NCBI GenBank assembly: GCA_947466085.1
Contig: CANIEC010000006.1
Span: 1 to 64,000 of the forward strand
Source: Rhodospirillales bacterium
GTDB taxonomy: Bacteria; Pseudomonadota; Alphaproteobacteria; Reyranellales; Reyranellaceae
Direction: 5' to 3'
Length of the DNA: 64,000 bases
Position numbers and translations under genes: made by a program
In this document: piece by piece, positions 841 through 6,979 of the stretch
Numbering within the stretch: the stretch's first letter is position 1
How the letters are laid out: each line of letters starts with the position of its first letter
Notes under the pieces: generated by a model
The model's database searches: none
The model's input: only the letters and a program-made list of their open reading frames with translations
Told to the model about the DNA's origin: nothing

Positions 841-2314
841 TGGGTGGTTCGACCTTTGCCGCCCCGGCTTGCGGCGGCCTGGCCGACGCGACCGCAACCG
901 GCGGCTCGGGCCTGGTTTCCGGTCTGGCCGGCGGCGCAACGTCGCGACGGGCGACCGCTTCCTTCAGGGATGCATACAGTTCCCTGGTGGGTTCGCCGGT
1001 CTCGCGCTGAGCATTGATGCGCTGAAAGGTTCGGATAGCGGCACGTGTCATCGGCCCCAATGCGCCATCTGGCTTGTCGCGCAGGAGCTTGAGATCGAAC
1101 AGCGCCTTCTGGATCATGCGGACCTGATCCTTGTTCTCCTTGGGCCAGTCCGGTGGATCGAGGTCCGGCGGCGGTAGCGGGGCAAGAGCGCCCGTTCGCG
1201 GCAGCGCCGGTGGAGGTATCGCTGTAGCGACTTCGACCGGCGGGAGGGGGGCACGGCGCACTTGGGGCCTGGCTGGTCTTTGCATCGCCTCGACGATGCG
1301 CCGGAACTCGTCCTGTCCGATCTGCTCGGCCTTCTGCAAGGCTTCCTGCGTCAAACCGTGCTGCAAGGCCTGCGCGCGCGTCGCCGCCGTCTTTGCCAGC
1401 GCCGTCTCCGCTCCCTTGTTCGCCTGCCGTTCGAACTCGGCGGTGATCGCGAACCAGGCCATCGCCGTCGGCGCATCCTTCGGCACCGCATCGCCGCGCT
1501 CGTAGATCTCGCCCAGGCTGAACATCGACGCAGCCATGCCTTGCCGCGCGGCCGACAGCAGGAGTTCGATCGCCTCTTCGCCGTTGCGGGCGGCGCCCTT
1601 ACCGTCGCGCAGCATCAGGGCGAGGTTGTGCTTGGCGATCGCCAGATCAGCTTCGGCGGCCCTGCGATACCATTCGATGGCCCTGGCAAAATTGCGCTCC
1701 AGCATGAAGCCGCGCTCGTACATCACCGCGACGTTGAAGGCCGACTGCGCGGAGCCCGACTGTGCGGCGCGCATCAGCCATCCCGCGCCGGCCTGGGGGT
1801 CCTTGGGCATGCCGATGCCCTGCACCAGCCGGCGCGCCAGCTCTTCCATGGCGGCGATGCTGCCTGCGTCGCCCCGATCCCTCAGCTCGCCGATCGGCAT
1901 GCCCGTCCAATCGAGCGGCCGGCTGGGCATCGGCGGCGCCGAGGGAGGAGGAGGCGAAGGCCCGGATGAGGGGGCCGGGGCAGCCGGGACGCGAAGGAGT
2001 TCGGTGCGGGCGGGTGCCGGTGCCGGGGGAGTGGGTGGTGGACCCGGTGTGGGAGCCGGCGGCGGTGCGGGAGCTGCCGTTACAGTCGTTTCCGCCGGTG
2101 TGACCGCCATCACCTTCGTTTCCGACGGTGCGGCGGGTGGACGCGGCTCTGGCGGTTCGACCACCGCCGCAATGGACTGTGCCTCCGGGGCATCTTCCGG
2201 CGAGCGCGTCACCCATGCGCCGACGCCCGCTGCCGACGCGACAACGATGGCGAACGACGCCACCACGATGGGCCGTTTCAGCAGGGAGGGGGCGGCAGTT
2301 GGCTTGCCGGTCAT
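1..2314 (-). CDS. Sel1-repeat / peptidoglycan-binding protein with proline-rich tandem tail (C-terminus beyond window)
   Basis: An open minus-strand frame of at least 771 codons has no stop before the left edge. Its ATG overlaps the stop of the heme A synthase gene (ATGA). Residues about 13-37 form one hydrophobic segment, so it is probably anchored in the inner membrane. A Pro/Ala-rich linker follows. Sel1-type helical repeats lie at about 130-270 (motifs such as GWLMRAAQSGSAQSAFNVAV and AIEWYRRAAEADLAIAKHNL). A PG_binding_1 domain lies at about 390-435 (VRMIQKALFDLKLLRDKPDG). From about residue 490 the chain is nine near-identical 30-31 residue units rich in Pro and ending in PEPPKPI. Known Sel1/PG-binding proteins work in envelope assembly or secretion; the exact role here is unknown. 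I checked the reading frame codon by codon over 782-1580 and at sample sites elsewhere. Confidence 0.85.
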   Translation of the reverse strand, partial: MTGKPTAAPSLLKRPIVVASFAIVVASAAGVGAWVTRSPEDAPEAQSIAAVVEPPEPRPPAAPSETKVMAVTPAETTVTAAPAPPPAPTPGPPPTPPAPAPARTELLRVPAAPAPSSGPSPPPPSAPPMPSRPLDWTGMPIGELRDRGDAGSIAAMEELARRLVQGIGMPKDPQAGAGWLMRAAQSGSAQSAFNVAVMYERGFMLERNFARAIEWYRRAAEADLAIAKHNLALMLRDGKGAARNGEEAIELLLSAARQGMAASMFSLGEIYERGDAVPKDAPTAMAWFAITAEFERQANKGAETALAKTAATRAQALQHGLTQEALQKAEQIGQDEFRRIVEAMQRPARPQVRRAPLPPVEVATAIPPPALPRTGALAPLPPPDLDPPDWPKENKDQVRMIQKALFDLKLLRDKPDGALGPMTRAAIRTFQRINAQRETGEPTRELYASLKEAVARRDVAPPARPETRPEPPVAVASARPPQAGAAKVEPPKPIVIAATEPPPPPPSSADITRLMPAPPEPPKLIELAAAETTPPPSSDDIARLIPAPPEPPKPIELAAAETTPPPSSDDIARLMPAPPEPPKPIELAAAETTPPPSSDDIARLMPAPPEPPKPIELAAAETTPPPSSDDITRLMPAPPEPPKPIQIAAAAPPPPPPTSADIRKLMPPPPEPPKPIQIAAAAPPPPPPTSADIRKLMPPPPEPPKPIQIAATAPPPPPPTSADIRKLMPPPPAPPKPIQIAAAAPPPPPTSADIRKLMPPPPEPPKPIQIA

Positions 2315-3378
2315 CCCCTAAGAATAGCCGAGACGGGCCGCTGCGGCGAAGCCATAGCGCGGTGGCGCACGACGATGAGGGCCGTCAGCAGCAGGACCGC
2401 GCCGGCCTGATGCAGGGTGGCGATCGGGATGCTGACGCCGCTCAGGATCGTGGCAATGCCGAGGCCGAGCTGGAAGAAGGCAATGGCAGCGGCGGCCAGT
2501 GCCTCGGCGCGCGGCGCACGCCAAGCCATGACCAGCACGCCCAGCACCAGGAGTTTGGCCAGCCAGCGATGGACGAACTGGATGGTGGTGCCGTTCTCGA
2601 AGAAGTTGATCCACCACGGCGAGAGGTCGAACAGGCCGGGCGGGATCCAGTAGCCCGACATGTCGGGGAACGTGCTGTGCGCGGTGCCGGCACGCAGGCC
2701 GGCCATGAAGGCGCCCCAAACAAGCACGACCAGCAGGAAGGCGATCAGCGCCGTCGACTTGCGGGCGGTCTTGCTGTCATCGCGTCGCACGCCCCCGGGG
2801 GTGAGTTCGAGGATCAGCCAGACCGTGTAGGCGTAGAGGATGATCGCGAGGAGAAGGTGCGCGGCGAGGCGATAGTGGCTGACGGAGGGCCGGTCCACGA
2901 GACCCGAGGCCACCATCGCCCAACCCATTGCGCCCTGCAGGCCGCCCAGCACGAGAAGCGCAAGGAGGCGGGGCTTGAGATGCGCATTGAGGGCGCCGCG
3001 CCACCAGAACCAGGCGAGCGGCAGGGCGAAGACGAGACCGATCAGCCGGCCCCACAGGCGATGGATGTACTCCAGCCAGAAGATCTCGCGGAACTCGGGC
3101 ACCGTGAAGTCGCGGTTCACCAGCCGCCCCTGCGGCGAGGCCAGATACTTCTGCAGTTCGGCCTGCCATGCAGCATCCGAGAGTGGCGGCAGCCACCCGG
3201 TGACCGGCCGCCATTCGACCATCGACAGGCCCGATTCGGTGAGCCGCGTCAGCGCGCCGATCACGATCATGAAGAAGATCATGCCGGCGACGACGATCAG
3301 CCACTGGCGCACGGAGGCGGGGACTTGCTGCATGGCCGCCGGAACATGGGGGAAGCGGAAGCCGCCGTCATCAGGCAT
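2311..3378 (-). CDS. ctaA: Heme A synthase (COX15/CtaA family)
   Basis: This integral membrane enzyme oxidises the C8 methyl of heme O to give heme A for aa3-type cytochrome oxidase. The product is 355 aa from ATG 3378. A TTG at 3447 would lengthen it with a poor N-terminus, and ATG 3333 is another possible start. The family's conserved histidines are visible in EYIHRLWGRLIG, HYRLAAHLLL, QFVHRWLAKLL and LHQAGAVLLL, spread over about eight membrane segments; the N-terminal ALTRLTESGLSMVEWRP stretch is typical. Its stop overlaps the start of the downstream Sel1 gene. It is divergent from the large flavoprotein at 3476. An aerobic respiratory lifestyle follows from its presence. Confidence 0.95.
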   Translation of the reverse strand: MPDDGGFRFPHVPAAMQQVPASVRQWLIVVAGMIFFMIVIGALTRLTESGLSMVEWRPVTGWLPPLSDAAWQAELQKYLASPQGRLVNRDFTVPEFREIFWLEYIHRLWGRLIGLVFALPLAWFWWRGALNAHLKPRLLALLVLGGLQGAMGWAMVASGLVDRPSVSHYRLAAHLLLAIILYAYTVWLILELTPGGVRRDDSKTARKSTALIAFLLVVLVWGAFMAGLRAGTAHSTFPDMSGYWIPPGLFDLSPWWINFFENGTTIQFVHRWLAKLLVLGVLVMAWRAPRAEALAAAAIAFFQLGLGIATILSGVSIPIATLHQAGAVLLLTALIVVRHRAMASPQRPVSAILRG

Positions 3379-3431
3379 AAATGTCGCGAAGGACGGCGTC
3401 GTCTTGCGCTCGCCGTCCGCCTTGTTTAACG

Positions 3432-3445
3432 GTTCGCGTACGAAC
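3432..3445. promoter_or_regulatory. Small dyad between ctaA and the divergent flavoprotein gene
   Basis: GTTCG-CGTA-CGAAC is an inverted repeat with 5-bp arms in the 97-bp divergent spacer, 31 bp before the flavoprotein ATG. It could be an operator, but arms this short also occur by chance. Confidence 0.25.
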
Positions 3446-3475
3446 AATTTTCATCCATCCTTCCGGAACATCGCA

Positions 3476-6400
3476 ATGACTGCGTCCCCGCTGGCCCCGC
3501 CGGTCACCTTCGGGTCGAGCTTCAATGACTTCTACGATCGCGAAGGCCTGGTCAGATTGGACGCCGCCTTCGTCGACTGGCTGAAGGACGCGAATGTCGA
3601 CGTCCATGCTCGCCTGCTGGCGGCGCGCGCCGCGCCGGACGCGATGGCCGTCAAGGACGAGTCCAATCTCCTGATCGAACTGGCGCGCCCGCTCGAGGAT
3701 TTTGTCGGGGCACTCTTCGGAGTCGCTCTCGAAGCGGCCGAGCTGCGGGCCCGCCACGGCCGCCTGGCGCCGCTCTACGACTGCAAGCGCCTGTTCGTGC
3801 AGCGCTACGTCACCCGCGCCCTCAAGGCCGATGCCGCGGCCGCTCTTGACGGAGCTGCCGTCACGGCCGCCGTGAACCTTCCCGTCACCTTCGAGGCCGG
3901 GCTCGAAGCCTGGGAACTGGCCTTCGCGCTGGCCGTCCGTGAGCGGATCGGGGCCGAATTCAAGGTCGAGACGCCGACACCCGAGGTCGAGGCCCTGACG
4001 CGCTACGCCGCCTGGGCACTGCACCATCCCGACGGCAAGCGCCGGCACCAGGAGGGGCCACTGTTCAAGGTGCCGCACAAGCTCGACTTCGAGCATCTCG
4101 TGCCGATCGAGACCGAGATCGTCGACGGCGTGACGCGCATGAAGCTGCCGCGGCCGCTGCTGCGCCATCGCGAGGGCTTTGCCCTGACCGACCAGGGCTT
4201 CGATCTCGTGCGCGCCCTCGACCACGCCAACTACTGCATCTGGTGCCACAATCAGGGCAAGGACAGCTGCTCGCGCGGCCTCAGGGATCGCAAGACCGGC
4301 GCGTTCCAGAAGTCGCCGTTTGGTGTCACGCTCGCTGGCTGTCCGCTCGAGGAAAAGATCTCGGAGATGAACCTGCTGAAGAGCGAGGGATTCTCCATCG
4401 GCGCGCTGGCGATAGCCGCGGTCGACAATCCGCTGCTGGCGGCGACCGGCCACCGCATCTGCAACGATTGCATGAAGGCCTGCATCTATCAGAAGCAGGA
4501 ACCGGTCGACATCCCGCAGATCGAGACCCGCACGCTGAAGGACGTGCTGGGCCTGCCGTGGGGCTTCGAGATCTACTCGCTGCTGACGCGCTGGAATCCC
4601 CTCAACCTGCGCCGGCCGGTCCCGCGCGCCCAGACCGGGCGCACCGTGCTGGTGGTCGGCCTCGGTCCCGCGGGCTTCAATCTTGCGCATCACCTGATGA
4701 ATGACGGCCACACGGTGGTGGCCATCGACGGGCTGAAGATCGAGCCGCTGCCCGAGGTGCAGTCGGGCGTCGCCATGGACGGCACGCGCGTGCCGTTCGC
4801 GGCGGTGAGGGACGTCGCGACTCTGCGCGAGAACCTGGGTGAGCGCGCCATGGCGGGATTCGGCGGCGTTGCCGAGTACGGCATCACGGTTCGCTGGGAC
4901 AAGAATTACCTGAAGACGGTGCGGCTGCTGCTGGAGCGGCGGGCGCAGTTCTCGATGTTCGGCGGTGTGCGCTTCGGCGGCACGGTGACGGTCGAGAGCG
5001 CCTTCGCCATGGGCTTCGATCACATCGCGCTCTGTGCCGGCGCCGGCAAGCCAACGGTGCTCGACCTGCCCAACGGCCTGGCGCGCGGCGTGCGTGCGGC
5101 GTCTGACTTCCTGATGGCGCTGCAACTTACGGGCGCGGCCAAGAAGGACTCGATCGCCAATCTGCAGATCCGCCTGCCGGTGGTGGTGATCGGCGGCGGC
5201 TTGACCGCGATCGATACTGCAACCGAATCGCTCGCCTACTATCCGCTGCAGGTCGAGAAGTTCCTCGTCCGCCACGAGACGCTGGTTGCGGAGCGCGGCG
5301 AGGCCGCGGTCGGGGCGAACTGGTCGCCCGAGGAACGCGAGATCGCCGGGGAATTCATCACCCACGCCAGGGCCATTCGAGCCGAGCGCGAACAGGCGGC
5401 GCGCGAGGGACGCGACCCGGCGATCACGAAGCTGGTGACCAGTTGGGGCGGCGTGTCGCTGGTCTATCGCCGTCGCCTGATCGATTCGCCGTCCTATACG
5501 CTGAACCACGAGGAAGTGCTGAAGGCGCTCGAGGAGGACATCCGCTTCGTCGAGGGCCTGTCACCCGTCGCGGTCGAGATCGACGAGGCGGGACAGGCCA
5601 GGGCGTTGAAGGTTGCGGGCGAGCAGCATGGTGCCAAGGTCGAGGCGACCCTGCCGGCGCGCACCATCCTCGTCGCCGCGGGCACGCAGCCCAACACGGT
5701 GCTGGCGCGCGAGGATGCGACGCACGCCTTCATCGACGGCAAGTATTTCCGCGCGCTCGACGAGGCCGGCAATCACGTGACGCCTGAGCGCGTCTGCAAG
5801 CCGGGCGACGTGCGCGTGCTTATGTACCGCCACGCCGACGACCGGTTCATGTCGTTCTTTGGCGACCTGCATCCCTCGTTTGCCGGCAACGTCGTGAAGG
5901 CGATGGGCGGGGCCAAGCAGGGCTATCCGGTGCTGACGCGGGCAATGACGGCGCTGCCGCCGGCCCGGCGCACGCCCGCGGAAATCCTGGACGAGGCCAA
6001 CCGTTCCTGGCGCGCCCGCGTGGTCCGCGTCGACCGGCTGACGCCCACCATCATCGAGGTCATCGTCGAGGCGCCGGCCGCCGCCCGCAACTTCGAGCCC
6101 GGCCAGTTCTACCGCCTGCAGAACTACGAAGCGTGTTCGCTGCGTGCCGAGGGCACGCTCCTCACCATGGAAGGCCTCGCGCTGACCGGCGCGTGGGTCG
6201 ACAAGGAGAAGGGCCTGCTGTCCTTGATCGCGCTGGAGATGGGCGGCTCGTCCGATCTCTGTGCGATGCTGAAGCCCGGTGAGCCGGTGATCGTCATGGG
6301 GCCGACCGGCGCACCGACCGAGATCGAGCCCGGCGAGACCGTCGTGCTGGTGGGCGGCGGCCTCGGCAACGCCGTGCTGTTCTCGATCGGCCAGGCCTTC

Positions 6401-6979
6401 CGCAAGGCCGGTAGCAAGGTGCTCTACTTCGCCGGCTACAAGCGCATGATCGATCGCTACAAGGTCGAGGAGATCGAGGCGGCGGCCGACGTCGTCGTCT
6501 GGTGCTGCGACGAGGCTCCGGGCTTCGCGCCGGGCCGGCCGGAGGACAAGTCGGTCGTCACCAACATCGTCGAGGCAATGCGGCTCTATGCGTCGGGCGA
6601 GCTCGGCGACCAGCCGATCCCCTACAGCGCGGCCGATCGCATCGTGGCCATCGGCTCCGACGGCATGATGAACGCGGTGCGCCTGGCGCGGCACGCGGCG
6701 CTGAAGCCATACCTGAAGCCCGGGCACGTGGCCTTCGGCTCGATCAACTCCCCCATGCAATGCATGATGAAGGAGATCTGCGCCCAGTGCCTGCAGCTGC
6801 ACAGGGATCCGGAGACCGGCAAGGAGACGGTGGTCTTCTCCTGCTTCAATCAGGACCAGCGGCTCGACCTGGTCGATTTCAACAACCTGCACCAGCGCCT
6901 GCGCCAGAACTCCCTGCAGGAAAAGATCGGTGCGCTGTGGATCGACAGGTCGCTGCGGCAGCTGGGCGTGCGCGGCTGA
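3476..6979 (+). CDS. Fused NfnB/GltD-like and NfnA/PyrK-like flavo-iron-sulfur oxidoreductase
   Basis: The product is 1167 aa from ATG 3476; the open frame extends upstream, but only into the ctaA shadow. Residues 1 to about 250 match no family I recognise. A GltD-like module follows. It has two Cys groups (C254, C257, C265, C289 and C329, C332, C336) fit for [4Fe-4S] clusters, an FAD-binding GLGPAG at 395-400, and a second nucleotide fold with GGG at 573-575. From about residue 846 there is a ferredoxin-reductase/PyrK-like domain (FEPGQFYRL, GGGLGNAVLF) ending in C1096, C1102, C1105 and C1123, a [2Fe-2S]-type pattern. The order matches NfnB then NfnA on one chain. NAD(P)H-dependent electron transfer is a safe call; true electron bifurcation is inference. 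Confidence 0.85.
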   Translation: MTASPLAPPVTFGSSFNDFYDREGLVRLDAAFVDWLKDANVDVHARLLAARAAPDAMAVKDESNLLIELARPLEDFVGALFGVALEAAELRARHGRLAPLYDCKRLFVQRYVTRALKADAAAALDGAAVTAAVNLPVTFEAGLEAWELAFALAVRERIGAEFKVETPTPEVEALTRYAAWALHHPDGKRRHQEGPLFKVPHKLDFEHLVPIETEIVDGVTRMKLPRPLLRHREGFALTDQGFDLVRALDHANYCIWCHNQGKDSCSRGLRDRKTGAFQKSPFGVTLAGCPLEEKISEMNLLKSEGFSIGALAIAAVDNPLLAATGHRICNDCMKACIYQKQEPVDIPQIETRTLKDVLGLPWGFEIYSLLTRWNPLNLRRPVPRAQTGRTVLVVGLGPAGFNLAHHLMNDGHTVVAIDGLKIEPLPEVQSGVAMDGTRVPFAAVRDVATLRENLGERAMAGFGGVAEYGITVRWDKNYLKTVRLLLERRAQFSMFGGVRFGGTVTVESAFAMGFDHIALCAGAGKPTVLDLPNGLARGVRAASDFLMALQLTGAAKKDSIANLQIRLPVVVIGGGLTAIDTATESLAYYPLQVEKFLVRHETLVAERGEAAVGANWSPEEREIAGEFITHARAIRAEREQAAREGRDPAITKLVTSWGGVSLVYRRRLIDSPSYTLNHEEVLKALEEDIRFVEGLSPVAVEIDEAGQARALKVAGEQHGAKVEATLPARTILVAAGTQPNTVLAREDATHAFIDGKYFRALDEAGNHVTPERVCKPGDVRVLMYRHADDRFMSFFGDLHPSFAGNVVKAMGGAKQGYPVLTRAMTALPPARRTPAEILDEANRSWRARVVRVDRLTPTIIEVIVEAPAAARNFEPGQFYRLQNYEACSLRAEGTLLTMEGLALTGAWVDKEKGLLSLIALEMGGSSDLCAMLKPGEPVIVMGPTGAPTEIEPGETVVLVGGGLGNAVLFSIGQAFRKAGSKVLYFAGYKRMIDRYKVEEIEAAADVVVWCCDEAPGFAPGRPEDKSVVTNIVEAMRLYASGELGDQPIPYSAADRIVAIGSDGMMNAVRLARHAALKPYLKPGHVAFGSINSPMQCMMKEICAQCLQLHRDPETGKETVVFSCFNQDQRLDLVDFNNLHQRLRQNSLQEKIGALWIDRSLRQLGVRG

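Follow-up and report, generated by a model that had tools for sequence, protein, structure and literature searches.

A 64,000-nucleotide stretch of DNA from a Rhodospirillales bacterium (assembly GCA_947466085.1, contig CANIEC010000006.1, positions 1 to 64,000; hereafter the window) encodes, at positions 3476–6979 of the forward strand, a protein of 1167 amino acids whose closest described counterparts are the Nfn enzymes, represented by the NfnAB structures PDB 5JCA, 5JFC and 4YLF. Fused forms of Nfn have been described by Liang et al. 2019 as patterns B, C and D; in pattern C, given there for Actinobacteria, Alpha- and Gammaproteobacteria, NfnA is C-terminal (PMC6405883). AadN from Rhodopseudomonas palustris follows pattern B, and evidence is reported that it supplies electrons to benzoyl-CoA reductase (PMC9973337), while DsrL is described as an NfnB-related NAD(P)H oxidoreductase that is the partner of the sulfite reductase DsrAB (PMC7596348). 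Bifurcating enzymes are reported to be almost absent from aerobes, with the exception of Fix (PMC6085437).

The protein of the window is close to certain to be an Fe-S flavoenzyme because of its fold and its cofactor ligands. Our preferred reading, to which a probability of about 0.55 may be given, is that it represents an NADPH-dependent ferredoxin oxidoreductase of the Nfn superfamily, serving biosynthesis in mostly apparently aerobic bacteria. NADPH would reduce the flavin of the NfnB-like part, from which two [4Fe-4S] clusters would carry electrons on to a ferredoxin (FdxA or an RsxB-like protein where their genes are linked). The ferredoxin would in turn serve reductases such as assimilatory sulfite reductase acting without a CysJ partner, and perhaps also heme A synthase (CtaA) in Alphaproteobacteria. 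We infer the reduction of ferredoxin from the Nfn-type pair of clusters, from occasional ferredoxin genes nearby and, by analogy, from the precedents of AadN and DsrL. An earlier note on this DNA had suggested that the fused enzyme could be transhydrogenase-like or reduce ferredoxin and be suited to aerobic life; ferredoxin reduction and a fit to aerobic life are plausible, and the host appears to be aerobic, judging from its ctaA gene and from its relatives.

Architecture and predicted structure

The frame runs from an ATG at 3476 to a stop codon, which is included in the coordinates, and its assignment as the coding sequence of a single-chain Nfn-like Fe-S flavoprotein rests on the translation, a genome search and a 67-sequence alignment. 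One full-length copy is present in the genome, the sole other match being a 25-bit piece. The AlphaFold model of the full chain, built from that alignment, has a predicted local distance difference test score (pLDDT) of 86.7 and a predicted template modelling score of 0.89. Residues 199–826 of the model superimpose on NfnL of P. furiosus (5jfc_L) with a Z score of 26.4 over 436 residues at 2.7 Å, and glutamate synthase small subunits come just under NfnL for the same region (Z 24.0–25.4). The C-terminal part corresponds to NfnS (5jca_S), both in the model (template modelling score of 0.84 by target length) and in sequence (E 1.5e-13). Since these two regions match NfnL and NfnS, respectively, the order in the chain is NfnB followed by NfnA. 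A single protein of 1167 residues with this order had been read from the letters alone in the earlier note, and the model bears it out.

Residues 388–830 fold into FAD- and NAD(P)H-binding domains of the NfnB/GltD type (4637–5965, forward strand, as are all features of the protein given below; Pfam PF07992, E 4e-11, and the superposition on NfnL) and hold the two dinucleotide-binding motifs already claimed in that note, GLGPAG at 395–400 and GGGLTA at 573–578. A helical insertion at residues 590–656 (5243–5443), ahead of the strand carrying the YRR motif, is seen as helices in the model and as a gap in the pattern C sequence. The NfnA/PyrK-like module at residues 845–1162 (6008–6961) comprises an FAD barrel, a nucleotide fold and a [2Fe-2S] arm; it confirms the PyrK/ferredoxin-reductase module with a [2Fe-2S]-type cysteine set (about 845–1160; C1096, C1102, C1105 and C1123) that had been recognised before.

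The chain begins with a helical domain, residues 1–195 (3476–4060), to which no function is assigned. Residues 1–230 modelled alone reached a pLDDT of 91.7, and no convincing PDB match was found for them with Foldseek (best E 0.44) or VIA (best Z 4.0, 112 chains aligned). Pfam returned no match for the N-terminal region of this protein and no family hit in more than one of 63 members, the best PHROGs match had an E value of 0.52, and no relationship to the N-terminal part of pattern C fusions was detectable (E 0.15 with two near-identical pattern C sequences). The stretch lacking a convincing match measures about 195–230 residues; an unfamiliar N-terminal fold had been correctly noted earlier, at a length of about 250. 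The NCBIfam model PRK06567 aligns along residues 13–971 of the protein and, because this alignment starts at residue 13, the N-terminal region belongs to the PRK06567 family too.

Cofactor ligands and motifs

The conservation of ligands was counted over the protein and 138 loci (n = 139), with a second alignment of 67 sequences. The two cysteine groups of GltD/NfnB type that had been seen in the letters hold up: C254-x2-C257-x7-C265...C289-P (4235–4342) and C329-x2-C332-x3-C336...E350 (4460–4525) align with, and probably correspond to, Cys39, 42, 47 and 51 and Cys90, 96, 100 and Glu117 of NfnB, respectively (numbering from PMC7596348). All eight residues are kept in 139 of 139 sequences. The all-cysteine [2Fe-2S] site, C1096-x5-C1102-x2-C1105-x17-C1123 (6761–6844), is kept in 138, the exception (L197) being a frame that stops at 742 amino acids. 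The Fe-S cysteines and the glutamate are invariant among the 67 sequences as well, and the invariance of the ligands reaches down to about 31% identity (L178).

NADPH is a likely substrate because Y664-R665-R666 (5465–5473) reproduces the NADP-phosphate (YRR) motif of NfnB; R665 is kept in 137/139 sequences, and the following position is arginine in 90 and lysine in 45. R473 (4892–4894) is a candidate for the Nfn arginine at flavin N5. It is invariant among the 67 sequences and aligns with the arginine of EFRLPK in one alignment, being one residue off in another, and the adjoining loop (460–472) has a pLDDT below 50.

The signatures given for Nfn are RCx2Cx4Cx3CPV, GRVCPQExQCx3Cx13Gx2ER, DGTGMCGxC and ERxPxT, the aspartate ligand of the [2Fe-2S] cluster being linked to a potential of +80 mV (PMC6405883, section 8). 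In the present protein the [4Fe-4S] ligands are kept with another spacing, Cx2Cx7Cx23CP and Cx2Cx3C. Cysteine takes the place of the aspartate of DGTGMCGxC in 138 of the 139 sequences, the remaining one being the broken frame, and EGLALT at 899–904 stands where the a-FAD motif ERxPxT would be expected, with E899 and T904 invariant among the 67. The position of C1096 as the counterpart of the aspartate comes from a by-eye comparison with two fused proteins (L097 and L106), and its loop (1093–1101) has a pLDDT below 50. Because the defining motifs were looked for and found to differ, the protein is classed as one that presumably works like Nfn and not as an Nfn member.

These substitutions bear directly on the possibility that the protein is a true bifurcating Nfn transhydrogenase, merely fused, which couples NADPH, NAD+ and ferredoxin at the NfnB flavin in aerobes. 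All cofactor modules are present in the model, the candidate N5 arginine R473 is invariant among the 67 sequences, as are the ligand equivalents of the proximal Cys3Glu cluster, and a second branch, which would run from the [2Fe-2S] cluster to the C-terminal FAD and an NAD site, might make bifurcation or transhydrogenation feasible. However, the aspartate ligand associated with the +80 mV potential (PMC6405883) is replaced, as is ERxPxT, and aerobes are reported to be almost devoid of bifurcating enzymes (PMC6085437). Moreover, the glycine motif of the C-terminal nucleotide fold is eroded in L139 and L184, and the fold is shorter by about 70 residues in L185 and L191, both from small genomes, with the four [2Fe-2S] cysteines remaining in each of these proteins. 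Aspartate has been exchanged for cysteine and some members have lost the C-terminal nucleotide site, which suggests that classical NAD-coupled bifurcation would not be the common function, and we regard a bifurcating transhydrogenase as unlikely.

Comparison with described systems and family assignment

With NfnAB the protein shares both modules, counterparts of the [4Fe-4S] ligands (Glu117 among them) and the YRR motif. It differs from NfnAB in being one chain with NfnB first and an extra N-terminal domain, in the longer stretch between C265 and C289, in insertions at about 424–460 and 590–656, in a four-cysteine [2Fe-2S] site instead of aspartate plus three cysteines, and in having EGLALT instead of ERxPxT. 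Fusion itself is not new, because Liang et al. 2019 describe fusions of NfnB with NfnA; the earlier note, which took separate subunits as the norm for Nfn, was right about the single chain but overstated how unusual it is, patterns B–D being known (PMC6405883).

Two proteins of 956 amino acids (L106 and L108) serve here as examples of pattern C, by our own assignment. They share the NfnB–NfnA order in one chain, and residues 230–1152 of the protein match residues 168–944 in a profile comparison (probability 99.6). Unlike the 1167-residue protein, L106 keeps the aspartate (DATGMCG) and GRVCPQ motifs and lacks the insertions at 424–460 and 590–656. Ordinary fused Nfn-type proteins are encoded at two further loci, L097 (DGTGMCG and ERIPLT) and L100 (ERIPLT), which come from the same bacterial class. 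AadN is likewise a single-chain Nfn-like protein of an alphaproteobacterium but, as described, is of pattern B, has subunits at least 51% identical to NfnI and belongs to anaerobic benzoate metabolism (PMC9973337). DsrL is described with a C-terminal ferredoxin domain, and its partner is the dissimilatory DsrAB (PMC7596348).

The nearest family model is PRK06567 (NCBIfam NF005128), which carries the misleading name 'glutamate synthase/hydroxylase' and whose match includes the N-terminal region. It was the best NCBIfam match in 9/9 sequences scanned, none of which reaches its cut-off of 1072 bits (715.7 bits for the 1167-residue protein, 473.5–820 bits in eight relatives); in each of these eight relatives no other model matched at E 1e-60. 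The GltD models TIGR01317 and TIGR01318 scored 54 and 37 bits against cut-offs of 447.7 and 482.95. The accession PRK06567 was not found in the literature searched, and searches by title or abstract start found no paper on this protein.

Distribution

At least 587 stretches encode a relative of the protein, well beyond what chance would give, and 78 of the best 80 match across nearly its whole length. Among the matches listed, the closest loci show 93–96% identity and come from metagenome-assembled genomes (MAGs) of Rhodospirillaceae, Rhodospirillales and Alphaproteobacteria, and the next closest, at 84–86%, include Reyranella records; by these nearest named relatives the genome of the window is taken to be Reyranella-like. 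Named loci further include Azospirillum, Gallionella, Candidatus Nitrotoga, Burkholderiales MAGs and Bryobacterales, and a member is carried by the A. caldus plasmid pTcM1 (L139). Of 385 alphaproteobacterial genomes sampled, 89 contain a relative at E 1e-60, a count that includes partial matches at contig ends and in broken frames. Because certain genome regions are represented by two loci (L082 and L159, for instance, are identical), numbers of loci do not translate into numbers of species.

In the phylum of the Bryobacterales locus L045 (genome G661), matches at the same threshold were found in 13/119 genomes. The N-terminal region is more variable there, because 10 of the 13 align only from residue 173–227 onward, in frames of 1245–1385 amino acids. 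In examples of such frames (G767, G732, G744 and G795), the N-terminal region is longer or replaced.

Genomic neighbourhood

A search for homologues and their gene neighbours, as advised in the earlier note, returned ctaA as the commonest neighbour, clusters of sulfate-assimilation genes and occasional ferredoxin genes. In the window, the Nfn-like gene does lie beside a heme A synthase gene, as had been stated: ctaA (2311–3447, reverse strand; NF045570 the only NCBIfam match, at 284 bits under a cut-off of 550) is upstream, back to back and divergent. Within 6 kb, ctaA occurs in 16 of 16 loci of the Reyranella clade and in 28 of 123 others. It is mostly divergent; L186 and L193 have the two genes co-oriented and separated by what looks, by eye, like a phosphoglycerate kinase gene.

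Linkage was also followed on a quickly built tree, with long branches flagged and with the broken L197 and mostly near-duplicate loci left out beforehand, counting the fewest changes, gains and losses together. Among the 91 rows whose flanks extend 3.5 kb or more to each side, ctaA ranked first (12 changes, 17 rows), followed by clusters of its antisense shadows, histidine kinase-like proteins (8 changes) and ABC ATPases (8), the last two being superfamilies, then by a mixed GTPase cluster including CysN (6), and by the CysG N-terminal domain and groES (4 each). A 106-row analysis found ctaA in 34 rows, with 11 changes.

Such recurrence might mean that the protein is a dedicated electron donor to CtaA. 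The mitochondrial Cox15 receives its electrons from ferredoxin and ferredoxin reductase, which would be a parallel, and in the 91 rows no neighbour cluster shows as many changes as ctaA. On the other hand, groES is also kept downstream (6 rows), so that the linkage of ctaA may in part reflect old synteny, and ctaA may be adjacent only by history because cys genes lie between it and the Nfn-like gene in L019, L053, L077, L147 and L173. A ctaA match at E 1e-10 was obtained in 36 of 50 hand-picked genomes with the Nfn-like gene; the 14 genomes giving none include ones that are 95–100% complete (six of them 96–100%). A fifty-first genome, G170, is left out of the count since it does not figure in the list of matches to the gene. 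Because of these 14 genomes heme A is not the general client, and heme A synthase as the general function was rejected on the same count. A dedicated role as donor to CtaA is therefore distinctly improbable.

In favour of the preferred reading, a ferredoxin oxidoreductase serving biosynthesis, stand the neighbouring sulfate-assimilation genes. They lie within 6 kb of the Nfn-like gene in 13 of the 123 non-Reyranella loci (L163, L162, L147, L019, L053, L077, L153, L164, L165, L170, L173, L049 and, weakly, L180), and in the tree analysis in 11 of 106 rows with at fewest 7 changes. The clearest case is L163, where cysI, cysG (its N-terminal domain scoring 62.2 bits where the cut-off is 62.3), cysH, cysD (named by eye), cysNC and the Nfn-like gene follow each other on one strand; L173 has the order ctaA, cysH, cysD, cysNC, Nfn-like gene. 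No CysJ gene was seen in those gene lists that were read, and five genomes with a sulfite reductase gene near the Nfn-like gene (G063, G308, G407, G398 and G495) gave no CysJ match at E 1e-50. The link to sulfur rests on scored gene searches and not on the CysN-like cluster, because that cluster is mixed and includes other translational GTPases (L072 and L186 look like TypA by eye).

Ferredoxin genes are occasional neighbours as well. An fdxA gene lies about 130–150 bp upstream of the Nfn-like gene in L049 and in the A. caldus locus L139, and an RsxB-like gene 42–250 bp downstream in L050, L055, L057, L062, L063 and L076. A conserved cluster adjoins the Nfn-like gene in L139 (5788–13462 of this pTcM1 locus), L029, L052 and L058; it consists of a GntR regulator, a PRK08275 AprA/SdhA-like flavoprotein, a small 4Fe-4S protein, a HEAT-repeat protein, FdxA (not detected in the L029 copy) and a taurine-type ABC transporter, and looks like a sulfonate-related reductive system.

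Several observations weigh against the proposed role. Over the 385 genomes, kinship being ignored, the overlap with CysI is modest: the Nfn-like gene is present in 12 of the 30 genomes scoring over the CysI cut-off and in 77 of 355 others, so that a link to sulfite reductase as a general rule is not supported. No CysJ match at E 1e-50 was obtained in 23 of the 30 CysI genomes, ten of which have the Nfn-like gene, which also occurs in two of the seven with such a match; the CysJ cut-off was passed by none of the 385 genomes, with matches reaching at least E 1e-50 in 19 of them. Ten genomes of 0.9–1.7 Mb (G372, G381, G396, G414, G436, G483, G494, G579, G603 and G631) keep the gene, and a search for CysI at E 1e-20 returned nothing from them. 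Most loci showed no cys or ferredoxin genes nearby. Within 6 kb, a motif scan picked up genes of ferredoxin type at 6 of 91 loci (flanks were short in many), and in the window itself the neighbour is ctaA, not cys genes.

In the genome of the window, which is 89% complete, NIR_SIR matches fall in a single gene on contig C40; inspection by eye showed a cysG-like gene next to this one and nothing CysJ-like nearby. The only CysJ match of the genome, of 257 bits, lies inside a frame of 1113 amino acids on another contig. In the relatives G139, G555 and G628 a CysJ-like match stands next to a sulfite reductase-like match, which disfavours sulfite reductase as the client in this genus.

Elsewhere in the window, positions 54–1010 hold a glycine-rich open reading frame of repeated units in a GC-rich stretch, which may be the shadow of a repeat protein on the opposite strand.

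Significance

The NCBI name, which implies either the beta subunit of glutamate synthase or a bifunctional glutamate synthase/polyprenylphenol hydroxylase, finds some echo in the GltD fold of the NfnB-like part (one to two Z units under NfnL), but this identity was rejected on domain content and can be put aside as very improbable: the Pfam matches include neither a glutamine amidotransferase nor a glutamate synthase domain, the chain also carries a complete NfnA/PyrK module and the N-terminal domain, the sequence profile favours Nfn chains (1.7e-18 against 5.6e-8), and no GltB was seen among the neighbours nameable by eye, where no search was aimed at GltB. A Neorickettsia genome paper applies the glutamate synthase label to glutamine metabolism (PMC5481527). 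For the Nfn-like family studied here the label is unsupported by the domain content, and caution is advised against reading the gene as one of glutamine metabolism, as has been done for a protein of the same name (PMC5481527).

In its widest and tentative form, to which we would give a low weight, the proposal is that a widespread aerobic branch of the Nfn superfamily, rewired through its all-cysteine [2Fe-2S] site and new N-terminal domain, uses NADPH to provide biosynthetic reductases with low-potential ferredoxin, bifurcating or not. It could be the donor that CysJ-less assimilatory sulfite reductases lack and, among Alphaproteobacteria, the one that heme A synthase lacks. We know of no established donor to the CysJ-less assimilatory sulfite reductase, nor of one that reduces CtaA in bacteria. 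A widespread Nfn-like enzyme makes both questions testable, namely what reduces the assimilatory sulfite reductase that lacks CysJ and what reduces bacterial CtaA.

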